NCBI GenBank assembly: GCA_035712365.1
Contig: DASTAW010000054.1
Span: forward strand, 1 to 64,000
From: Terriglobia bacterium
Lineage (GTDB): Bacteria > Acidobacteriota > Terriglobia > UBA7540
Reading direction: 5' to 3'
DNA: 64,000 nucleotides
Shown in pieces: positions 33,101-64,000 of the stretch. Each line of letters opens with the position of its first letter. Position 1 is the first letter of the stretch. The translations under genes were made by a program, and so were the position numbers. The notes beneath the pieces were generated by a model that made no database searches, was not told the DNA's origin, and was given only the letters and a program-made list of their open reading frames with translations.

Positions 33101-34882
33101 ATGGGAACGCAACCGGCAGCCGACGCTTCTGAAAACCAGCGTGGATTTGGCATGTCCGGGAAATTAGGCGAACTCCTGATTCGCGAGAGCCTGATTACCC
33201 AGGACCACCTCAAGCAGGCGCTGGAACATCAGAAGAACCACGGTGGCCGTCTGGGCAGCAGTCTCGTAAAACTGGGATTTTTAACCTCCGACCAGATCAC
33301 CAGTGTCCTCTCGCGGCAGTACGGCATCCCCTCCATCAATCTGGATTATTTTGAGGCCGAGCCAAGCGTCACCCGGCTGGTCCCGATGGAGACCGCCGTT
33401 AAATATCAGGTGGTGCCTATCAGCAGGGTAGGGTCATCCCTGACTCTGGCGATGGCTGATCCTGCCAACGTCTATGCCATGGACGACATCAAGTTCATGA
33501 CGGGCCTCAATATCGAGCCGGTGGTGGCTTCGGAGTTGTCGATCACAGAAGCCATTAAAAAGAATTACGGCTCCATCGAGGAACAGGACAGGAAGAAGGA
33601 ATTCGAAGACCTGGTCAGCTTTATTCATGAAGGGGAGACCGACAGCGTGGAGGTGGAGGCCGAGAATGAATCTACGCTGAACCTGGCGGCGCTCGAAAAA
33701 GCCGCGGAAGAAGCCCCGGTCATCCGGCTGGTCAATTATCTTCTGACAGACGCCGTCGAGCGCGGAGCCAGCGATATTCACCTGGAGCCCTACGAGAAGG
33801 AATACCGGGTCCGCTACCGGATTGACGGCGTGTTGCAGAACGTTATGCAGCCACCCTTCAAGCTGCGAGACGCCATCATCAGCCGTATCAAAATCATGGC
33901 CAAACTCGATATTTCTGAAAAGCGGCTGCCCCAGGATGGCCGCATCATGGTCCGGATGGTCCATAACAACCGCAGGAAACAGCTCGATTTTCGCGTTTCG
34001 GTGCTCCCAACCCTCCACGGCGAAAAGATTGTCATGCGGCTGCTGGACAAGGAGAACCTGCGCCTGGATATGGCTCGACTGGGATTTGAAAAGGAGTCGC
34101 TGGAAAAGTTTCAGCGGGCCATCTTTAAGCCCTATGGCATGGTGCTGGTGACGGGACCCACCGGCAGCGGCAAAACCAACACGCTCTATTCTTCCATCGC
34201 CCAGCTCAATAAGCCTGATATAAACATCATGACCGCCGAGGACCCGGTGGAATTCCAGTTGCCGGGTATCAACCAGGTCCAGATGAAAGAGCAGATTGGG
34301 CTTAATTTTGCGGCGGCGCTGCGCTCATTCCTTCGCCAGGATCCCAACATCATCATGGTGGGAGAAATTCGGGATTTTGAAACGGCCGAAATCGCCATCA
34401 AAGCGGCGCTGACCGGCCATCTGGTGCTGTCTACGCTGCACACGAATGACGCGCCCTCCACGATCTCGCGGCTGATGAACATGGGAATCGAACCCTTTCT
34501 CGTGGCCACCTCGGTGCACCTGATTTGCGCCCAGCGTCTGACCCGCCGCATCTGCCAGCAATGTAAAACCGAGGAAAAAGTCCGCCATCAGGTCCTGGTG
34601 GATGCTGGGTTCGCGCCGGAGGAGGTCATGACCCTCAAGGTTTACCGCGGAGAGGGCTGCCAGGCGTGCAACAACAGAGGGTTCAAAGGCCGGGTGGGAC
34701 TTTACGAAGTCCTCGAAGTCACCGACGAATTGCGCGAGATGGTTCTGGCGGGGGCTTCGGCGCTTGACCTCAGAAAAAAAGCCGTTGAACAGGGAATGAC
34801 TACGCTGCGGCGAAGCGGCCTGTTCAAGGTTGCTGAAGGAATCACCACGCTGGAAGAGGTGATCCGCGAAACCGTGCTCTGA
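33101..34882 (+). CDS. pilB: Type IV pilus assembly ATPase PilB
   Basis: A 593-aa cytoplasmic secretion ATPase that powers pilus extension. The N-terminal GspE/MshE-type domain (about 18-170) begins GKLGELLIRESLITQDHL. The ATPase core has Walker A GPTGSGKT near residue 352, the Asp box (TAEDPVEFQLPG), Walker B (IIMVGEIRDFETAEIA) and the His box (TGHLVLSTLHTND). A zinc-binding pair CQQCK ... CQACNNRG lies near 486-528, as usual for PilB. ATG 33101 is chosen; an internal ATG at residue 18 is possible. The gene opens the pilus locus and is followed by pilT after 50 bases. Confidence 0.96.
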   Translation: MGTQPAADASENQRGFGMSGKLGELLIRESLITQDHLKQALEHQKNHGGRLGSSLVKLGFLTSDQITSVLSRQYGIPSINLDYFEAEPSVTRLVPMETAVKYQVVPISRVGSSLTLAMADPANVYAMDDIKFMTGLNIEPVVASELSITEAIKKNYGSIEEQDRKKEFEDLVSFIHEGETDSVEVEAENESTLNLAALEKAAEEAPVIRLVNYLLTDAVERGASDIHLEPYEKEYRVRYRIDGVLQNVMQPPFKLRDAIISRIKIMAKLDISEKRLPQDGRIMVRMVHNNRRKQLDFRVSVLPTLHGEKIVMRLLDKENLRLDMARLGFEKESLEKFQRAIFKPYGMVLVTGPTGSGKTNTLYSSIAQLNKPDINIMTAEDPVEFQLPGINQVQMKEQIGLNFAAALRSFLRQDPNIIMVGEIRDFETAEIAIKAALTGHLVLSTLHTNDAPSTISRLMNMGIEPFLVATSVHLICAQRLTRRICQQCKTEEKVRHQVLVDAGFAPEEVMTLKVYRGEGCQACNNRGFKGRVGLYEVLEVTDELREMVLAGASALDLRKKAVEQGMTTLRRSGLFKVAEGITTLEEVIRETVL

Positions 34883-34932: not shown

Positions 34933-36063
34933 ATGTCCACGTCGATACCGCCGCTGAGTGATTTGCTCCGCCTCATGGTGGATTCTGGAGGGTCGGACCT
35001 GCACATCACCACCAACACGCCGCCGCGGATTCGCGTGCATGGCGAACTGAAGCCGTGCGAAGACCTGCCAGCGCTGGGCCCCGCCGACAGCAAGCAGCTC
35101 TGTTACAGCATTCTGACGGACGCCCAGAAGCACCGGTTTGAGGAAAGCCTGGAGCTCGATTTTTCCTTCGGCATCAAGAATGTTGCGCGGTTCAGGGGCA
35201 ACCTGTTTCACCAGCGCGGCGCCGTGGCTGGCGTGTTCCGCGTGATTCCTTTTGAGATCAAGACATTCGAGCAGCTTGGACTGCCCGCAATCCTGCGCAA
35301 ATTGTGCGAAAAACCGCGCGGGCTGGTCCTGGTGACCGGGCCGACGGGAAGCGGGAAATCCACCACCCTGGCAACGATGCTGGATCTGATCAATTCCACC
35401 CGCCATGAGCACATGATTACCATTGAGGACCCGATTGAGTTCATACATCCCCACAAGAAGTGCCTGGTGAACCAGCGCGAGGTGAATTCGGACACGCATT
35501 CTTTTGCGAATTCCCTGCGCGCGGCGCTGCGCGAAGACCCGGACGTGGTGCTCATTGGCGAACTGCGCGACCTGGAAACCATCGAGTCCGCTCTGCGGAT
35601 TGCTGAGACGGGCCACCTGACTTTCGGCACCTTGCACACGAATTCGGCCGCTTCCACAATTAACCGCATCATTGATGTTTTCCCGGCGCACCAGCAGGCG
35701 CAGATTCGCGCACAACTTTCCATGGTGATGGAGGGCATCGTCTGCCAGTCACTGCTGCCGCGCAGTGATGGGAAAGGGCGTGTGATGGCGATGGAAATCC
35801 TGGTTCCAAACGCCGCCATCCGCAATCTGGTTCGTGAAGACAAGATTCACCAGATTTATTCCACCATGCAGACCGGCCAGGAGCGCTATGGCATGCAAAC
35901 GTTTAATCAGTCGCTTTACACGCTTTACCAGCAAAAGCTGATTGACCTGGAAACAGCCCTGGGCCGGTCAAGCAATAAGGAAGAGCTGCAGGACATGATC
36001 AACCGCGGAGCATCAGCCGGGCCGGCCCGCAGCCTTGTGCAGGGCTCGCCCGTGCGTAGATAG
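34933..36063 (+). CDS. pilT: Twitching motility retraction ATPase PilT
   Basis: A 376-aa hexameric ATPase that retracts type IV pili. The N-terminal PAS-like domain starts with LLRLMVDSGGSDLHITTNTPP. Walker A GPTGSGKST lies near 136, the Asp box is TIEDPIEFIHPHKKCLVNQREV, the Walker B segment DVVLIGELRDLETIESAL contains the GELRD motif typical of PilT, and the His box is TGHLTFGTLHTNSA. The C-terminal VVRM-type region is QSLLPR... with AIRNLVREDKIHQI. It sits between pilB and pilC, which indicates a motility-type, retractable pilus rather than a pure secretion system. Confidence 0.96.
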   Translation: MSTSIPPLSDLLRLMVDSGGSDLHITTNTPPRIRVHGELKPCEDLPALGPADSKQLCYSILTDAQKHRFEESLELDFSFGIKNVARFRGNLFHQRGAVAGVFRVIPFEIKTFEQLGLPAILRKLCEKPRGLVLVTGPTGSGKSTTLATMLDLINSTRHEHMITIEDPIEFIHPHKKCLVNQREVNSDTHSFANSLRAALREDPDVVLIGELRDLETIESALRIAETGHLTFGTLHTNSAASTINRIIDVFPAHQQAQIRAQLSMVMEGIVCQSLLPRSDGKGRVMAMEILVPNAAIRNLVREDKIHQIYSTMQTGQERYGMQTFNQSLYTLYQQKLIDLETALGRSSNKEELQDMINRGASAGPARSLVQGSPVRR

Positions 36064-36134: not shown

Positions 36135-37346
36135 ATGTCCCAATTCGAGTTTCGAGGAACGTCGCGAACCGGAGAAACCATCACAGGAATCCGCTCCGCG
36201 CCCAGCCGCGCGGCACTGGATTCTGCCTTGCGGCGCGAATCGATTACCCCTCTCAAGATTGTAGAGAAAGGGCGCGAAATCGCCATTCCCAAGTTCAAGT
36301 GGGGCGAAAAAGTTAAAGCCAAGGAGCTGGCCGTGTTCACCCGCCAGTTTTCCGTGATGATCGACGCCGGGCTCCCGCTGGTGCAGTGTCTCGAAATTCT
36401 TTCCTCGCAGCAGGAGAACAAGGCCTTCGCTCGGATGCTGGCCGGTGTCCGCGGGTCGCTGGAAGCGGGATCTTCGCTGGCCAACGCCTTGCGGCAGCAT
36501 CCCAAGGGCTTTGATGATCTTTACACCAACATGGTGGAAGCCGGTGAGAGCGGCGGCATCCTAGACACAATCCTGCAACGCCTGTCCACGTATATCGAGA
36601 AGGCTGTCAAGCTGAAGCGGTCCGTGCAGTCGGCCATGATCTATCCTGTGGCCGTTGTGGTGATTGCCGCCGGTGTCGTTGCATTACTACTGTGGAAGGT
36701 GGTGCCCATCTTCACCACCCTTTTTGCGGGCTTAGGTGTCGCCCTGCCGCTTCCCACCCGGATCGTAATCGCTCTAAGCCATTTTGTGGCGAGCTTTGGT
36801 CCCATTCTCCTCGGCCTGCTTGTTCTCGTCGGGCTGGGTATCCGGTGGTATTACCGCACGCCTTCGGGGCGGATGGTAATTGATGCTCTCATTCTGAAAA
36901 TTCCTGTGCTGGGCCCGGTGATGCGCAAAATTGCCGTGGCGAGGTTCTCGCGAACGCTCGGGACGCTGATTACCAGCGGCGTCCCCATGCTCGAGTCGAT
37001 GGACATTACGGCCCGAACTTCGGGAAATGCCGTGGTGGAAAAGGCGATCGCGCAGGTCCGCAGAGCCATCGAGGGAGGTCAGACCATCGTCGATCCGCTC
37101 CGCGAGACCGGCGTCTTTCCTAACATGGTGGTCCAGATGATTGGCGTAGGCGAGCAAACCGGCTCACTGGACGCCATGCTTCAGAAAGTGGCCGATTTCT
37201 ATGAGGACGAGGTGGACGCTGCGGTGGGCGACCTTCTGACCGCCCTCGAACCCATCATCATTCTCCTCCTGGGAGTGGTTGTGGGAGGGGTGGTGATTTC
37301 CATGTATATGCCATTGTTCTCACTCATCGGCAAGCTGGCGGGGTAA
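36135..37346 (+). CDS. pilC: Type IV pilus inner-membrane platform protein PilC
   Basis: A 403-aa polytopic membrane protein that anchors PilB/PilT and the assembling pilus. GAACGGAGG precedes ATG 36135. Two T2SSF cytoplasmic domains are visible: from FTRQFSVMIDAGLPLVQCL (about 67) and from FSRTLGTLITSGVPMLESM (about 270). Transmembrane segments lie near 170-192 (MIYPVAVVVIAAGVVALLLW), 213-240 and 373-395 (IILLLGVVVGGVVISMYMP). The motif MVEAGESGGILDTILQRL is typical. It follows pilT by 71 bases. Confidence 0.96.
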   Translation: MSQFEFRGTSRTGETITGIRSAPSRAALDSALRRESITPLKIVEKGREIAIPKFKWGEKVKAKELAVFTRQFSVMIDAGLPLVQCLEILSSQQENKAFARMLAGVRGSLEAGSSLANALRQHPKGFDDLYTNMVEAGESGGILDTILQRLSTYIEKAVKLKRSVQSAMIYPVAVVVIAAGVVALLLWKVVPIFTTLFAGLGVALPLPTRIVIALSHFVASFGPILLGLLVLVGLGIRWYYRTPSGRMVIDALILKIPVLGPVMRKIAVARFSRTLGTLITSGVPMLESMDITARTSGNAVVEKAIAQVRRAIEGGQTIVDPLRETGVFPNMVVQMIGVGEQTGSLDAMLQKVADFYEDEVDAAVGDLLTALEPIIILLLGVVVGGVVISMYMPLFSLIGKLAG

Positions 37347-37503: not shown

Positions 37504-37635
37504 ATGAAATTCACAGGTGAATTCCATAGCTGGCTTTCCTGGGTCATAAAGATTTGCGCTATCATCACTCTTTTCTTTGTCATCGCCTATGCCATCGAAC
37601 GTTTTCGCCAAGACCAGAAGCTTCCATTCAATTGA
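37504..37635 (+). CDS. Putative 43-aa single-pass membrane protein in the pilus locus
   Basis: ATG 37504 to TGA 37633-37635 encodes 43 residues. An amphipathic start (MKFTGEFHSWLSW) leads to one strongly hydrophobic helix (VIKICAIITLFFVIAYAI, about 14-31) and a basic tail (ERFRQDQKLPFN). The topology is that of a bitopic small membrane protein with the tail in the cytoplasm by the positive-inside rule. It lies between pilC and a TMTC-like gene with its own TATAAT candidate. There is no clear Shine-Dalgarno site, so translation is unproven. No known family is recognised. Confidence 0.4.
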   Translation: MKFTGEFHSWLSWVIKICAIITLFFVIAYAIERFRQDQKLPFN

Positions 37636-37855
37636 CGATCCGGGCGGGTGTGTCATTTTTTGGTACAGTGTGAGCCTGTCTTCCTGAGTTATGCTGGATC
37701 AGATTTACTACTCTGATGATACAGTTAAGCTCCGTGATTTAAACAGTTTATTTTGATTTTATAACGCTTTACTTGAAAATACGGAGCCCCGTTGCCGATG
37801 AGACGTGGGTCGTTTCGCCACGACCTTAATCCGCAGGCGTCTGAATGCCGCTAGA

Positions 37856-39703
37856 ATGTTTGCAATGACAGATCGTGCGCTCCAGGGAACCACCACGAAC
37901 AACCAGGCTTCCGCTCATCTTCGGCGGACAACGTCATGGATTTCGGAATGCTGGGTCTTGCTCAGCCTGATTCTACTGGCCGTCTTCCTCGTCTACAGCA
38001 ACACGCTGCGGTTTGACTTTGTTTACGACGATCGCGGCCAGATTCTGGCCAACGTGCAGGTCCACGCCTGGCGCTACGCTCCTCATTTTTTTCTTGAAAG
38101 GGTCTGGAGCTTTGCTTATCCGGGACTTCAGGGCAACTACTACCGCCCCATGTTTCTGCTGTTCCTGCTTCTCAACTACAAGATCTTCGGCCCCTTCGCG
38201 GCCGGCTGGCACCTGGTGAGCGTCATCGCGCATGCAGGGGTTACGTACTTGGTCTACGTGCTGGCACGGCGGCTGACGGGCGATCAGCCCACAGCCCTGA
38301 TTGCCGCCCTGATCTTTGGAATTGATCCGGTGCACATTGAATCGGTGGCCTGGATTTCAGGCGTTACCGATCCGCTGCTTGCTCTGTTCCTGCTGCCGGC
38401 ATTTCTCTGCTATCTCAACGCGCGAGAAGGGATGGCGCATCGCCGATCCTGGCTGGTGATCTCGCTGGCGCTCTATAGCCTTGCCATGCTGTCCAAGGAA
38501 ACGGCGTTGATTCTGCCGATTATCATTTTTGCGTATGAATGGCTCTGGCGCCGACCCGTTGGACATAACTGGTTCCGGTCAGCTTTCGCGCGTGCACGGA
38601 CTGCCGCTGTTCGAATCGTGCCTTTCGTGTTGCTCACGTTTGTGTATCTTGTCGTTCGCTGGCAGGTACTCGAGGGGTTAGGGCACATGATGGTTCCGCT
38701 CAGTGTCTCAACCATCATCTATACCTGGCCGCACCTGATGCTGTTTTACTTGCGTCACCTTGTCTGGCCGTTCGGCCTGAGCGTCTTTTACAACGTGCCC
38801 TACGTCGAGACGCCTGCTCTCGTGCCTTTTGTCCTGCCACTGGCCGGGCTTGTGGCCGTAGGATTCCTGGTCTCGATTGCGGTACGCAGGCTGGGCAGGA
38901 CCTCGCCGCCAGACGGCCGCCTGGCAGTCTTCTGCTGCGCGTGGATTCTGATTCCGTTTATTCCCTTGCTGGACCTTTCGGTATTGCCGGTTGGTGAAAT
39001 CGCGCATGACCGCTATCTTTACCTGCCGTCAATCGGTCTTTCCATTCTGCTGGCCATGGCCCTGCGGCGCATTCGCATTGGAAAGCTGAAGATGTTCGGG
39101 TTTCCTGCACTTCAAATCGCTGCCGTACTGCTGCTGGCGCTCGTGCTTGGGACGGCAACGGCCATCGAGGACCGCTACTGGGCGAATGATATGACTCTTT
39201 ATGCCCGCGGGGTCGAGCGCACCCCGCAAAACAAGCTTGCCAGGACCAATCTGGGCAACGCCATGGGCGAGCAGGGACGCTACACCCAGGCGCTTGCTCT
39301 CTACCGGGAAGTGCTGGCACGCGATCCGCAGTTCTGGCTGGCGATTTATAACACCGCGTATACGTATTACCGGATGGGTAAGCTGCCGGAAGCTGAGGAA
39401 TTTTTCAAGCGGGCAATCGCAGTGAACGGCGTTGACAGCGACGAGTATTTTTACCTGGGGCTTACATGGTTGAAGCTCGGCGATGTTGACAACGCCGAAA
39501 AGGCGGTGCGGCATGCACTCAAGCTGCAGCCGGGCGGACTGGCCTACCACTTCGCGATGGGAATGATTCTGAAGCTGAAGGGCGACATTCCCGGCGCGTT
39601 GACCGAATTCAACGAGGAGCTGAAGAATTTTCCGGGTGAAACGGGCGCGGAACAGCAGGTCGAGGCGATCAGAACCATCCGGGGCCAAGCTGATAAGAAT
39701 TAG
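37856..39703 (+). CDS. GT-C-like multi-membrane TPR protein (TMTC-type), copy A
   Basis: About 615 aa; the start is uncertain between ATG 37856, ATG 37865 and an upstream GTG at 37805, with no strong ribosome site. Many membrane segments cover about residues 30-440. The first loop holds FDFVYDDRGQILAN, with the acidic pair expected of GT-C glycosyltransferases, then NYYRPMFLLFLLLNY, DPVHIESVAWISG, LSKETALILPI and HDRYLYLPS. TPR units follow (RTNLGNAMGEQGRYTQALALYREVLARDP and on to about 600). Eukaryotic TMTC proteins with this layout are O-mannosyltransferases using lipid-linked sugar. It lies upstream of the pilin gene; a role in pilin modification is inferred only. Confidence 0.72.
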   Translation: MFAMTDRALQGTTTNNQASAHLRRTTSWISECWVLLSLILLAVFLVYSNTLRFDFVYDDRGQILANVQVHAWRYAPHFFLERVWSFAYPGLQGNYYRPMFLLFLLLNYKIFGPFAAGWHLVSVIAHAGVTYLVYVLARRLTGDQPTALIAALIFGIDPVHIESVAWISGVTDPLLALFLLPAFLCYLNAREGMAHRRSWLVISLALYSLAMLSKETALILPIIIFAYEWLWRRPVGHNWFRSAFARARTAAVRIVPFVLLTFVYLVVRWQVLEGLGHMMVPLSVSTIIYTWPHLMLFYLRHLVWPFGLSVFYNVPYVETPALVPFVLPLAGLVAVGFLVSIAVRRLGRTSPPDGRLAVFCCAWILIPFIPLLDLSVLPVGEIAHDRYLYLPSIGLSILLAMALRRIRIGKLKMFGFPALQIAAVLLLALVLGTATAIEDRYWANDMTLYARGVERTPQNKLARTNLGNAMGEQGRYTQALALYREVLARDPQFWLAIYNTAYTYYRMGKLPEAEEFFKRAIAVNGVDSDEYFYLGLTWLKLGDVDNAEKAVRHALKLQPGGLAYHFAMGMILKLKGDIPGALTEFNEELKNFPGETGAEQQVEAIRTIRGQADKN

Positions 39704-40031
39704 CGCGGGTAAGCCGATGCCGTAGGATCGCGGTGCTGTAAGTTGCTGACGCAAAATCTCTTTTCATGGAATCCAGAGCTTCCACCGGGCGATGATTGAG
39801 GCGGCCAGCGAAGGTTTTTTGTCCCCGGGATTCGACAGAAACGGTAGCGGGCCGGTTTCTGCCAGTTCCGTATCAGAGCACGCCAGTCGGTGGTATTATT
39901 ACACCTTGAATTTTCATGGGCCGAGGGGGTTATAAAGGATTGGTTAGCTTCAGCCGATGTGGAACCTGAGATGGACGAGGCAGTCGGCCTTGCCAGATCG
40001 GACGATTCAGGTAGGTTTAAAGGAGGAATGA
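39704..40031. other. Pilin leader region, 328 bases
   Basis: No gene is supported. A weak sigma-70-like pair TTGAAT (39906-39911) and TATAAA (39931-39936) with a long 19-base spacer could be the pilin promoter. AAGGAGGAATGA immediately before the pilin start is a strong ribosome site. A GG-N11-GC arrangement at 39979-39993 is close to, but not, a canonical sigma-54 promoter. Confidence 0.35.
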
Positions 40032-40538
40032 ATGGGGACAGATTCCAAAGGGTTTTCACTGATTGAACTGCTGATCGTCGTAGCGATCATCCTGATTATC
40101 GCTGCGATCGCGATCCCGAACCTGCTGCGCTCGAGGATTGCTGCCAACCAGGCGTCGGCGGTTGGATCGTTGAGAACTTACAGTACGGCCGAAGTCACCT
40201 ATGCTTCGACTTATACCAGCGGCTACAGCGCAACTCTGGGTGACCTGGGCCCGCCGGCGGCAGGCAGCATGCCCACATCCACGGCTGCCGCGCTCGTGGA
40301 CAGTGTGCTTTCGGGAGGCTCGGCAACGGCCATGGGAGCAGTGAAGAGCGGCTACAGCTTTACCTATTCGCCGGGACCGGTTGTTGGCGGACGGATTGAC
40401 ACCTATGAATTTTGGGCAGATCCGGTGACACGCGGAACCACCGGCCAAAATTCTTATTACACGGACCAGTCCGGCGTCATTCGCCAGAACTCGAACAACA
40501 CTCAGGCAAGTTCGGCGGATTCGCCCCTCGCGAACTGA
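40032..40538 (+). CDS. pilA: Major type IV pilin (PilA-like)
   Basis: A 168-aa prepilin. MGTDSKG is the short leader; cleavage after Gly7 by the prepilin peptidase leaves Phe8, followed by SLIELLIVVAIILIIAAIAIPNL with Glu at +5, the hallmark of type IVa pilins. The exposed part is small, Gly/Ser/Thr-rich and without a clear C-terminal disulfide pair (no cysteine is visible), so the head domain is compact. AAGGAGG precedes the start. The gene lies between two TMTC-like GT-C/TPR genes and about 2.7 kb after pilC. The many Ser and Thr residues near the end (SNNTQASSADSPLAN) would be possible O-glycan sites. Confidence 0.93.
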   Translation: MGTDSKGFSLIELLIVVAIILIIAAIAIPNLLRSRIAANQASAVGSLRTYSTAEVTYASTYTSGYSATLGDLGPPAAGSMPTSTAAALVDSVLSGGSATAMGAVKSGYSFTYSPGPVVGGRIDTYEFWADPVTRGTTGQNSYYTDQSGVIRQNSNNTQASSADSPLAN

Positions 40539-40581
40539 TCTGCAGTCGCGTCGGGATTGGGTGTAACTCCGGCAACTCCGC

Positions 40582-40615
40582 GGGGGGACCTTGGGGGTTC
40601 CCCCATTTTCTTCTT
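40582..40615 (+). terminator. Rho-independent-type terminator of pilA
   Basis: GGGGGACC pairs with GGTTCCCCC around a TTGG loop (about 40584-40604), with one bulged base, and is followed by ATTTTCTTCTT. It lies 44 bases after the pilin stop, so it could separate abundant pilin transcript from the downstream gene. Confidence 0.7.
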
Positions 40616-40636
40616 GTGATCTTCCATCCTGTGTTG

Positions 40637-42742
40637 ATGCCTCGAACAGCCAGTTCCTCAGAACAGGACCATGAAATCAGAGGGCGCGGTGTTTATCGTG
40701 TGTTTCGAGTGATTCGGACCAGAAGGGGGAGGACTTCGTTTGGCAGGAAGGACGGTCCGGAATCTCCCGCCACGGCCGTGTGTGCCGGAAGCAGGCGTGA
40801 AACCGGGGAATTCGACGCCTTCCTGATCGCAGCGCTCATTCTCTGTGCGGCGCTTCCTTACCTCAATACCCTGCTCAACGGGTTTGTCTATGACGACAAC
40901 CGGCAGGTGCTCGACAATCCTTACCTGAAGAATTTCCATTTCCTTCCGCAGATGTTTGGCACCACGGTTTGGTCGTTTGTGGGCACGCAGGGCGTCTCCA
41001 ACTACTATCGCCCCATGATGACCTTCGGGTATGCGGTGTGCTACCACCTGTTTGGTCCCCTGGCCTACGGCTTCCACCTGGTGAATGTCTTGCTGCACGC
41101 AGGTGTCGTCCTGCTCGTATTTTTGGTGGCAAGCAGACTGTTTAAGGACAGGGCGATTGCGTTTGTGGCCGCCTGTCTCTTTGCTGTTCACCCCATCCAC
41201 ACTGAAGCCGTTGCCTGGGTGGCGGCGGTCACCAGCCTTGAAGTCACGTTTTTCTTCCTGCTGACTTTCTGGCTGTTTCTCAGTATGGCGCGCCCGAACG
41301 GCGAGATTTCCCCGTGGATGAAGCTGGCTGCAGTAGTGAGTTTTGCGCTGACGATTTTTTCCAAGGAACAGGCCCTGGTTTTTCCCCTGCTGGCCATGAT
41401 CTATGAGCATTTCTTTCGCGATGACCGCGCTCAAACCAGCTTTTGGCAGAAGGCGCGCCGGTATGGGGAGTTCTGGCTGATGGATGTGGCGTACGTGCTG
41501 TTCAGGGTAGAGCACCTGGGAGCCTTCGCGCCACAGGTCCAATTATCGCGCCTGGGCTGGCGCCCCAGCGTTCTGTCGGCGCTGGCGCTGGTGGGACAGT
41601 ATCTCGAAAAAATTCTGTGGCCGGTCCAACTCTGCGCCTACTACGTCTTCCATAAGAGAACCTCAGTGTTCGATGCGGGGGTGCTGGCAGGCATCGCAGC
41701 GCTCGCTGCCTGCCTGATGATTTTTGTCCTGCTGTTCCGGCGAAATCGGGCAGCCTCGTTTGGATTTGTCTGGTTCTTTTTGACTTTGGCTCCGGTGCTC
41801 GACATCCGTTATCTGGCAGGGAACGTTTTCGCGGAACGATATCTCTACCTGCCGTCGGTGGGTTTCTGCTGGCTGACGGGATGGGCCGGTGTAAAGCTGT
41901 GGAAGTCGCTGTCCGCGCGGCGCCGCGCCTGGAGATATGCCCTGCTGGCAACCTCCTGCGCGATAGGTCTGCTGATGGCGATTCGGGTGGTCGCTCGCAA
42001 CCGCGACTGGCGCAGTGACGAGGCACTTTACAGCCAGACGCTGAAGGTCTCGCCCAGAGCCACCAACATCCGCGAAAACCTGGGCGTGGTGGCGTGGAAT
42101 CACGGGAGGATTGACGAGGCAGAAAAGGAATGGAGCATCGCGCTGAAGCTGAATCCTGACTCTCCGATCACACTCACTAATCTTGGCCTGGTTTCTGCCA
42201 AGAGAAAACAGTACGGGCAGGCGGAGCATTATTTCCGCGAAGCGATGCTGCGCAAGCCGGAGTATACCGATCCGCACCTCAATCTCGGCAGCATGATGAT
42301 GGACCTGGGCCGGTTTGAGGGGGCAGAACGGCAGCTACGGGCCGCGGCCGCGCTTTCACCCCTGGTTCCAGATTGCCATAATGAGCTCGGGAAGTTGTAT
42401 CTTAAAGAAGGGCGCCTCGCCGAAGCGGAGGGACAGTTTTTGCAATCGGTGCGGGCGGCGCCGAACTTTGAAGGCTATGACGGCCTTGGCGACGCTGATC
42501 TGCAGCAGGAGGATCTGAAGCGGGCCGCGCGAGCATTTGCGGCGGCAGCGGAGATCAACCCGTATGATAGCCGCGCTCATTTCGGACTGGCGCGGATCGC
42601 ATCCCTTGAGGGTCACCGGAAAGTGGCGCTGGCGGAATATGCGCGAGGGTTTGAAACGGACCCAAACAATCCCGAGGCAAAAATCGCCGCCGAAGTTTTA
42701 AGGGCAAATGGAAATTATGAACCAGAAAATTCAGAACCATAG
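40637..42742 (+). CDS. GT-C-like multi-membrane TPR protein (TMTC-type), copy B
   Basis: A 701-aa protein. ATG 40637 lies after the pilin terminator; the frame is open further back through the pilin gene but that part is not coding. About residues 50-450 are membrane segments with GFVYDDNRQVLDN, SNYYRPMMTFGYAVCYHLFGPL, HPIHTEAVAWVAA, FSKEQALVFPL and ERYLYLPS, the same blocks in the same order as copy A. TPR units (about 460-700: NIRENLGVVAWNHGRIDEAEKEW, ITLTNLGLVSAKRKQYGQAE) form a long solenoid. The acidic pair in YDDNRQ is the GT-C-like catalytic candidate. Copies A and B clearly share ancestry. lolA overlaps its end by 35 bases. Confidence 0.75.
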   Translation: MPRTASSSEQDHEIRGRGVYRVFRVIRTRRGRTSFGRKDGPESPATAVCAGSRRETGEFDAFLIAALILCAALPYLNTLLNGFVYDDNRQVLDNPYLKNFHFLPQMFGTTVWSFVGTQGVSNYYRPMMTFGYAVCYHLFGPLAYGFHLVNVLLHAGVVLLVFLVASRLFKDRAIAFVAACLFAVHPIHTEAVAWVAAVTSLEVTFFFLLTFWLFLSMARPNGEISPWMKLAAVVSFALTIFSKEQALVFPLLAMIYEHFFRDDRAQTSFWQKARRYGEFWLMDVAYVLFRVEHLGAFAPQVQLSRLGWRPSVLSALALVGQYLEKILWPVQLCAYYVFHKRTSVFDAGVLAGIAALAACLMIFVLLFRRNRAASFGFVWFFLTLAPVLDIRYLAGNVFAERYLYLPSVGFCWLTGWAGVKLWKSLSARRRAWRYALLATSCAIGLLMAIRVVARNRDWRSDEALYSQTLKVSPRATNIRENLGVVAWNHGRIDEAEKEWSIALKLNPDSPITLTNLGLVSAKRKQYGQAEHYFREAMLRKPEYTDPHLNLGSMMMDLGRFEGAERQLRAAAALSPLVPDCHNELGKLYLKEGRLAEAEGQFLQSVRAAPNFEGYDGLGDADLQQEDLKRAARAFAAAAEINPYDSRAHFGLARIASLEGHRKVALAEYARGFETDPNNPEAKIAAEVLRANGNYEPENSEP

Positions 42743-43430
42743 CCTGCGGGGCGGGTTCCAGTTCCTGGCGGGTGTGTGCGCGGCTTTTATAGCGATGACA
42801 TTACTCCCTTGTTGCCTGGCGGGCCAAGTCTCGGACGCCAGCCTGCCGCTCGATAAATTCATCACCGAGGTGCAGACCAGCTATCGTGAAGTGGAGGCCA
42901 TCCGGGCCGACTTCACTCAGACCTATGACACGGGCGGCGCCGCCCGGGTGGAATCCGGGACGGTGGTTTTTGCGCGCGGCGGCCGCATGCGATGGGATTA
43001 TCGCGAGCCGGAGAAGAAGGTCTTTCTCTCCAATAAAAAGGAGGTCCTGCTCTACTTGCCCGCCGAGGGCCAGCTTAACCGCTCGTCGGTTAAGCAGAGC
43101 GAGGACTTTCGCGTTCCGTTTCGCCTGCTGCTTTCCCGGCTCGACCTGAGGAAGGTGTTCTCCAGGTTTGAAGACGCCGACAACCAGTTTCAGCACCCAC
43201 CCGGAGACCGAGTGATCATCGGGTATCCTAAGAATGCGGATAAGATGGGTTACAAACACGTTGTCATGGAATTTGATCCGCAGATGGACATTCGACGGCT
43301 CGAAATTGTCTACACCAACAGCACCGAGATGAAATTCAGCTTCAGCCACATTGACCGGAATCCCACGCTGACGGCTGCCATGTTCGAGCTGACCCCACCG
43401 GCGGGAACCCAAATCATCAACCACGAGTGA
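42708..43430 (+). CDS. lolA: Outer-membrane lipoprotein carrier LolA-like protein
   Basis: A 240-aa protein with an N-terminal hydrophobic signal (FLAGVCAAFIAMTLLPCCLAG). The LolA fold is recognised by REVEAIRADFTQTYDTGGAARVESGTVVFARGGRMRWDY (two stretches, about 59-97) and the later VVMEFDPQMDIRRLEI. LolA receives lipoproteins from the inner membrane and ferries them across the periplasm. The start at ATG 42708 overlaps the TMTC-like copy B gene by 35 bases; a second ATG nine bases later is possible. No LolB is nearby, as in many non-proteobacteria. Confidence 0.9.
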   Translation: MEIMNQKIQNHSLRGGFQFLAGVCAAFIAMTLLPCCLAGQVSDASLPLDKFITEVQTSYREVEAIRADFTQTYDTGGAARVESGTVVFARGGRMRWDYREPEKKVFLSNKKEVLLYLPAEGQLNRSSVKQSEDFRVPFRLLLSRLDLRKVFSRFEDADNQFQHPPGDRVIIGYPKNADKMGYKHVVMEFDPQMDIRRLEIVYTNSTEMKFSFSHIDRNPTLTAAMFELTPPAGTQIINHE

Positions 43431-63825: not shown

Positions 63826-64000
63826 ATGGTCACGGCTCGAGTGCCTCTCAGGTTAACGCTTGCTCTCCTCTCCTGCGCAGTCTGCTCCCCGGCGCAGACC
63901 CCGGCGGCGAAAACCAAACAAGATTTTTCCAATGAAGCCGCCGTAATTGAAAGCTATCGCTCGACCTATACTTTCCAGAACGATGGCACTGACACCCAGG
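63826..64000 (+). CDS. Start of a secreted DUF3857-type protein, cut by the window edge
   Basis: ATG 63826 opens a frame to the right edge. A signal peptide (PLRLTLALLSCAVCSPAQ) precedes NEAAVIESYRSTYTFQNDGTDTQ, which matches the start of DUF3857 domains (pattern EAxVIExxRTxYRFENDGT) that usually precede transglutaminase-like or TPR regions. Only 58 residues are visible. The upstream ribosome site is weak. Confidence 0.7.
   Translation, partial: MVTARVPLRLTLALLSCAVCSPAQTPAAKTKQDFSNEAAVIESYRSTYTFQNDGTDTQ

Follow-up and report, generated by a model that had tools for sequence, protein, structure and literature searches.

TMTC-like proteins flanking pilA in a Terriglobia bacterium: a candidate pilin glycosyltransferase and a paralogue linked to lolA

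The animal TMTC1-4 proteins are O-mannosyltransferases in which a GT-C glycosyltransferase membrane domain is followed by tetratricopeptide repeats (TPRs), and bacterial TMTC-like proteins have been noted previously (PMC7801869). Here, we analyzed a 64,000-nt window (the whole stretch of DNA examined) of contig DASTAW010000054.1 from a Terriglobia bacterium, in which the pilin gene pilA lies between two genes for proteins with this predicted layout, labeled TMTC_A and TMTC_B (A and B hereafter). The gene order is pilB-pilT-pilC-TMTC_A-pilA-TMTC_B-lolA, with every gene on the (+) strand. Unlike the animal proteins, A and B have neither a DUF1736 match nor the DW motif and are encoded at a bacterial pilus locus. 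In the open-access literature, we found no report on the function of bacterial TMTC-like proteins, and none on TMTC-like genes in pilus loci or on pilin glycosylation in Acidobacteriota.

Among pilin-modifying enzymes, TfpW of Pseudomonas aeruginosa group IV is described as a GT-C arabinosyltransferase that glycosylates pilin, its gene sharing a cassette with that of the pilin (Kus 2008, as cited in PMC11841053). Compared by description and gene position, TfpW and A are both pilin-linked GT-C proteins, with tfpW located downstream of pilA and TMTC_A upstream. TfpW is not known to carry a TPR array. The closest known parallels are TfpW in function and the animal TMTC family in architecture. An initial annotation of this DNA had proposed a pilin modification system of a new type; the TMTC/TPR type is new, but TfpW is an earlier example of a pilA-linked GT-C that glycosylates pilin. 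The TfpO/PilO and PglL oligosaccharyltransferases, like A, are encoded by genes linked to pilin, in their case for O-glycosylation; they belong to the Wzy_C/WaaL-type family, whereas A and B are GT-C proteins with TPRs and have no Wzy_C among their Pfam matches. The lack of a TfpO/PglL-type Wzy-like gene, also part of the initial annotation, holds for the locus and the contig, where there is no Wzy_C gene, but not for the genome, which encodes eight Wzy_C proteins, all on other contigs.

Fold and active site of TMTC_A and TMTC_B

TMTC_A (37865..39703, + strand) encodes a predicted GT-C domain followed by ~4 TPRs and TMTC_B (40637..42742, + strand) one followed by ~7 TPRs. The start of A was placed by homology at ATG 37865, with GTG 37805 as an alternative, and the start of B is uncertain within the range 40637-40710. 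A TTG at 40412 was also considered for B but is unlikely, since it would overlap pilA. The alignment of the two proteins covers 587 amino acids at 29% identity (E-value of 1e-59), and A and B are, judging by this alignment, ancient paralogues. It contains the shared blocks in the same order that had been noted initially, and the open reading frames of the two homologous proteins on either side of the pilA-like gene were found where they had been placed. Pfam searches matched A to PMT_2 and PMT and located C-terminal TPR arrays in both proteins, likewise as first described.

The AlphaFold models of A (predicted local distance difference test [pLDDT] score of 93.8, predicted template modeling [pTM] score of 0.92) and B (pLDDT of 86.8, pTM of 0.85) were aligned to experimentally determined structures. 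For A, the membrane domain matched yeast Stt3 (Z-score of 21.0, root-mean-square deviation of 4.5, 339 residues) and archaeal AglB (Z-score of 19.7), while B matched Stt3 (22.5), AglB (21.3), Pmt1-Pmt2 (19.0), Pmt4 (18.5) and ArnT (18.5). Both proteins are thus modeled with a GT-C fold, as the initial annotation had supposed. Their GT-C nature was visible by fold comparison only: PDB sequence searches, made with A alone and then with profiles of A and B, returned nothing relevant, and plain Foldseek rankings of the models were dominated by TPR proteins.

An acidic motif of the first outer loop, YDD, occupies residues 57-59 in A and 85-87 in B. Compared with Table 4 of PMC7801869, both proteins contain the TMTC motifs M1 (DD), M2 (YRP), M4 (KE(T/Q)) and M7 ((D/E)RxxY), in the same order as in the animal proteins, where Eisenhaber and colleagues assigned catalysis and lipid-phosphate-sugar binding to these motifs (PMC7801869). 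Among 111 related proteins, DD is retained in 100% (in every clade), YRP in 96-100% at Arg-Pro, KE in 96-100% and (D/E)R in 100%. At motif M3, B of the window carries Ser in place of the Asp found in most B proteins. The near invariance of the catalytic residues across proteins that are ~30% identical points to selection for catalysis, and A and B would be expected to transfer a lipid-linked sugar. Since the GT-C fold and the combination of GT-C with TPRs were found but DUF1736 was not, we describe A and B as TMTC-like and not as proven members of the TMTC family.

Linkage to pilA and origin of the local arrangement

The gene between A and B, pilA (40032..40538, + strand), encodes the major type IV pilin; its product matches the N_methyl model, has a sub-threshold match to Myxococcus PilA, and is 92% identical in sister genomes. 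We surveyed linkage in 61 related genomes from one phylum, using best-match tables for TMTC, PilA and PMT_2 (~150 rows each) and a genome scan with one A-type peptide pattern. Most of these genomes were assembled from metagenomes and consist of short contigs, which makes absence of linkage uncertain and biases linkage counts downward. Among the matches listed, 44 of 148 TMTC matches lay within 10 kb of a PilA match (~1.7 expected by chance), compared with 0 of 150 matches to PMT_2, a general GT-C family, in the same genomes (Fisher's P of ~1e-15).

The canonical order in relatives proved to be pilB-pilT-pilC-pilS-pilR-A-pilA-ABC ATPase-ABC permease-TPR gene-(PAP2)-B-lolA, where the ATP-binding cassette (ABC), PAP2, PilS and PilR products were assigned by Pfam and the TPR gene by eye. 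Up to the TPR gene, it can be set against the pil cluster of Myxococcus xanthus, which comprises pilBTC, pilSR, pilA and pilGHI (PMC6060248 and, in part, general knowledge). The ABC genes are likened to M. xanthus PilGHI by position alone, and, unlike in M. xanthus, TMTC genes are inserted before pilA and before lolA in the Acidobacteriota relatives.

The conserved neighborhood on which the initial annotation had staked its proposal is thus present in relatives. Among loci picked for holding PilA or TMTC matches, a co-directional TMTC gene occupied the pilR-pilA interval in 14 of the 22 in which pilR and a downstream pilA were visible. A-type linkage to pilA or pilR extends to other families of the class, and pil-linked A-type genes occur also in the class Blastocatellia, including the cultured Pyrinomonas methylaliphatogenes K22, which makes the proposed function testable now. 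In one sister genome (G002), A begins only a few bases past the pilR stop codon and is therefore probably part of the pilSR operon. Two TMTCs from a different clade sit in this slot in G011, as if the TMTC had been replaced and its function kept. Additional pilA copies accompany additional A copies in G013, G022 and G006, with three tandem A copies ahead of three pilins in G013.

Some loci depart from these patterns. In G041, another GT-C gene (PMT_2, 460 amino acids; L060:11195-12577) lies divergently between pilR and pilA, with a TMTC gene downstream of the pilins. The pilR-pilA gap of G049, which has no TMTC matches, holds a gene for a 725-amino-acid membrane protein (L076:6933-9110) that resembles a fused spermidine synthase by eye and has no Pfam match. 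Two similar pil-TMTC loci occur in G026, each on its own contig (L046 and L047), and in the second TMTC_B is broken into three frames.

In a tree of 111 membrane domains, the split between A and B was strongly supported. The A clade comprises pilR/pilA-associated copies together with many copies without pil genes, and its members have been duplicated, replaced and lost. The B clade is slower; wherever the contig reaches that far, lolA is its usual neighbor, often with PAP2. In many relatives, a PAP2_3 lipid phosphatase gene stands immediately before TMTC_B (e.g., L048:6417-7457; also L050, L052, L059 and L121).

Since canonical relatives carry the ABC-TPR-PAP2 genes between pilA and B and B stays with lolA, the tight A-pilA-B arrangement of the window is a local derived state that arose through loss of intervening genes. 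This module is gone from the locus in this genus, and a search of the window genome for its TPR and PAP2 genes matched neither. The pilS-pilR pair that precedes A in most relatives is found at the corresponding place in G001, G002 and G026 and is gone from the locus in the window lineage. Its scar is a 43-codon reading frame at 37504..37635 (+ strand) with 67% identity to residues 19-55 of the sister-genome PilS, a remnant of the PilS N-terminus left by deletion of the pair. The window lineage has therefore lost pilS-pilR and the downstream module and retained both TMTC genes.

Candidate roles of TMTC_A and TMTC_B

We favor, by a modest degree, a reading in which A is a protein glycosyltransferase of the pil locus that acts on pilin and B is an old paralogue more likely to serve another envelope component. 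For A, beyond the GT-C fold, the nearly invariant motifs and the enrichment near pilA, support comes from its adjacency to pilR and pilA, from the apparent substitution at this slot in G011, from the probable co-transcription with pilSR in G002 and from a Rho-independent terminator 3' of pilA (40582..40604, + strand; stem of 10 pairs). A similar stem-loop follows pilA in G001 and G002, and the arrangement resembles known pilin-accessory gene cassettes (PMC11841053). A would be an inner-membrane GT-C of the TMTC/PMT type with its catalytic side towards the periplasm, drawing sugar from a polyprenyl-phosphate carrier and placing it on Ser/Thr of PilA while the pilin sits in the membrane, and its periplasmic TPR arm may hold the acceptor or the pilus machinery. 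B would share the catalytic core, with lolA and, in most relatives, the ABC transporter and the PAP2 lipid phosphatase as fixed partners. Its most probable target is another envelope constituent with a tie to pilus biogenesis; a second position on pilin is less probable.

Several findings weigh against this assignment. The DW motif (M5) of animal TMTCs is not conserved among the 111 related proteins, and a search of the window genome for DUF1736 (PF08409) gave no match, even though this model recognizes other TMTC-type genes from the class. The Ser/Thr content of PilA is no different with a TMTC neighbor (P of 0.16), and Ser/Thr enrichment of TMTC-adjacent pilins was accordingly dropped as support. 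Despite the presence of a pil locus, A is absent from the slot in G003, G012, G016, G017 and G025, and in G017 B is not seen either. B tracks lolA rather than pilA, and the lolA link is kept where pilA lies on a different contig (L069, L072, L115 and L121). Finally, many A-type genes are on contigs that show no pil gene; their neighbors are mixed (by eye, M16-peptidase-like, NAD-synthetase-like and others), with no pilin among them. Because so many A-family members lack a nearby pil gene, we infer, rather than observe, that pilin is the likeliest acceptor of A. Separately, A-type and C-type TMTC genes cluster together away from pil genes at L089, L090 and L092.

A broader version of the proposal, in which Acidobacteriota possess a dedicated TMTC-type system for pilus O-glycosylation, with A acting on pilin under PilSR control and B serving a second envelope acceptor or lipid-carrier recycling together with the ABC transporter, PAP2 and LolA, is conceivable but tentative. 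The dedicated pilin modification system of the initial annotation finds partial support: it gains from the conserved linkage and the GT-C fold and loses from the derived state of the double flank, the non-equivalence of A and B and the many A copies without pil genes.

Alternatively, A and B might be ArnT-like GT-Cs whose substrate is a lipid or polysaccharide of the cell surface, with their placement in pil loci reflecting co-regulation with surface motility. Fold comparison matched B to ArnT among others, genes for PAP2 and an ABC-2 transporter adjoin B in relatives, and A-type genes also occur without neighboring pilins; however, TPR arms are a usual feature of TMTCs acting on proteins and not of ArnT, and A adjoins pilR/pilA specifically, while none of the listed PMT_2 matches in the same genomes does, which leaves this explanation unlikely. 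It is more doubtful still that A and B share one pilin as substrate, each adding its own sugar or using its own site, even though they flank pilA in this genus and both catalytic cores look active by their motifs, since the double flank is derived and B is bound family-wide to lolA, not pilA, even with pilA elsewhere. For B, a separate role as an envelope glycosyltransferase is more probable than one on pilin. Least probable is a role of both proteins in pilus assembly that depends chiefly on the TPR arms, like that of the PilF/PilW/Tgl pilotins or TfpY, and little on the sugar-transfer core. Sub-threshold matches to the PilW and Tgl models, PilF among the structural TPR matches and the position of B next to lolA, a lipoprotein carrier, might suggest it, but the TPR matches are generic and the membrane domain hardly varies at its catalytic residues.

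Returning to A as a pilin glycosyltransferase, its conservation at pil loci suggests, without proving, that the pili of these bacteria receive a sugar coat through a previously undescribed route. If so, bacterial TMTC-like proteins would gain a first candidate acceptor in pilin, and A would represent a further kind of pilin glycosyltransferase, with a bearing on pilus-targeting phages, surface motility and the attachment of abundant soil bacteria. It would also offer a simple bacterial system for an enzyme type tied to deafness and brain disease in animals, and the broader, dedicated system would amount to a bacterial equivalent of the animal TMTC pathway, with a filament protein as its substrate.

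Neighboring genes and other loci in the genome

Upstream of A lie pilB (33101-34882) and pilT (34933-36063), with Pfam T2SSE/MshEN matches and in the same order in relatives, and pilC (36135..37346; Pfam T2SSF), which encodes the inner-membrane platform protein; all three are on the (+) strand. The span of the initial annotation leaves out this pilB-pilT-pilC cluster. A scan for sigma-54 sites near TMTC_A and pilA gave weak matches only. Downstream, lolA (42708..43430, + strand; Pfam LolA), the usual neighbor of the B clade, starts within the 3' end of TMTC_B, and the 35-base overlap (42708-42742) suggests translational coupling.

The window genome has three TMTC-type genes, two flanking pilA and the third on another contig. 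A second pilin, 71% identical to PilA, is also encoded on another contig, with no TMTC gene within the 9 kb read around it. Near window position 63826 (L043:3827, contig C54), a gene begins for a 1115-amino-acid TPR-rich protein that matches TMTC_B weakly (28%).

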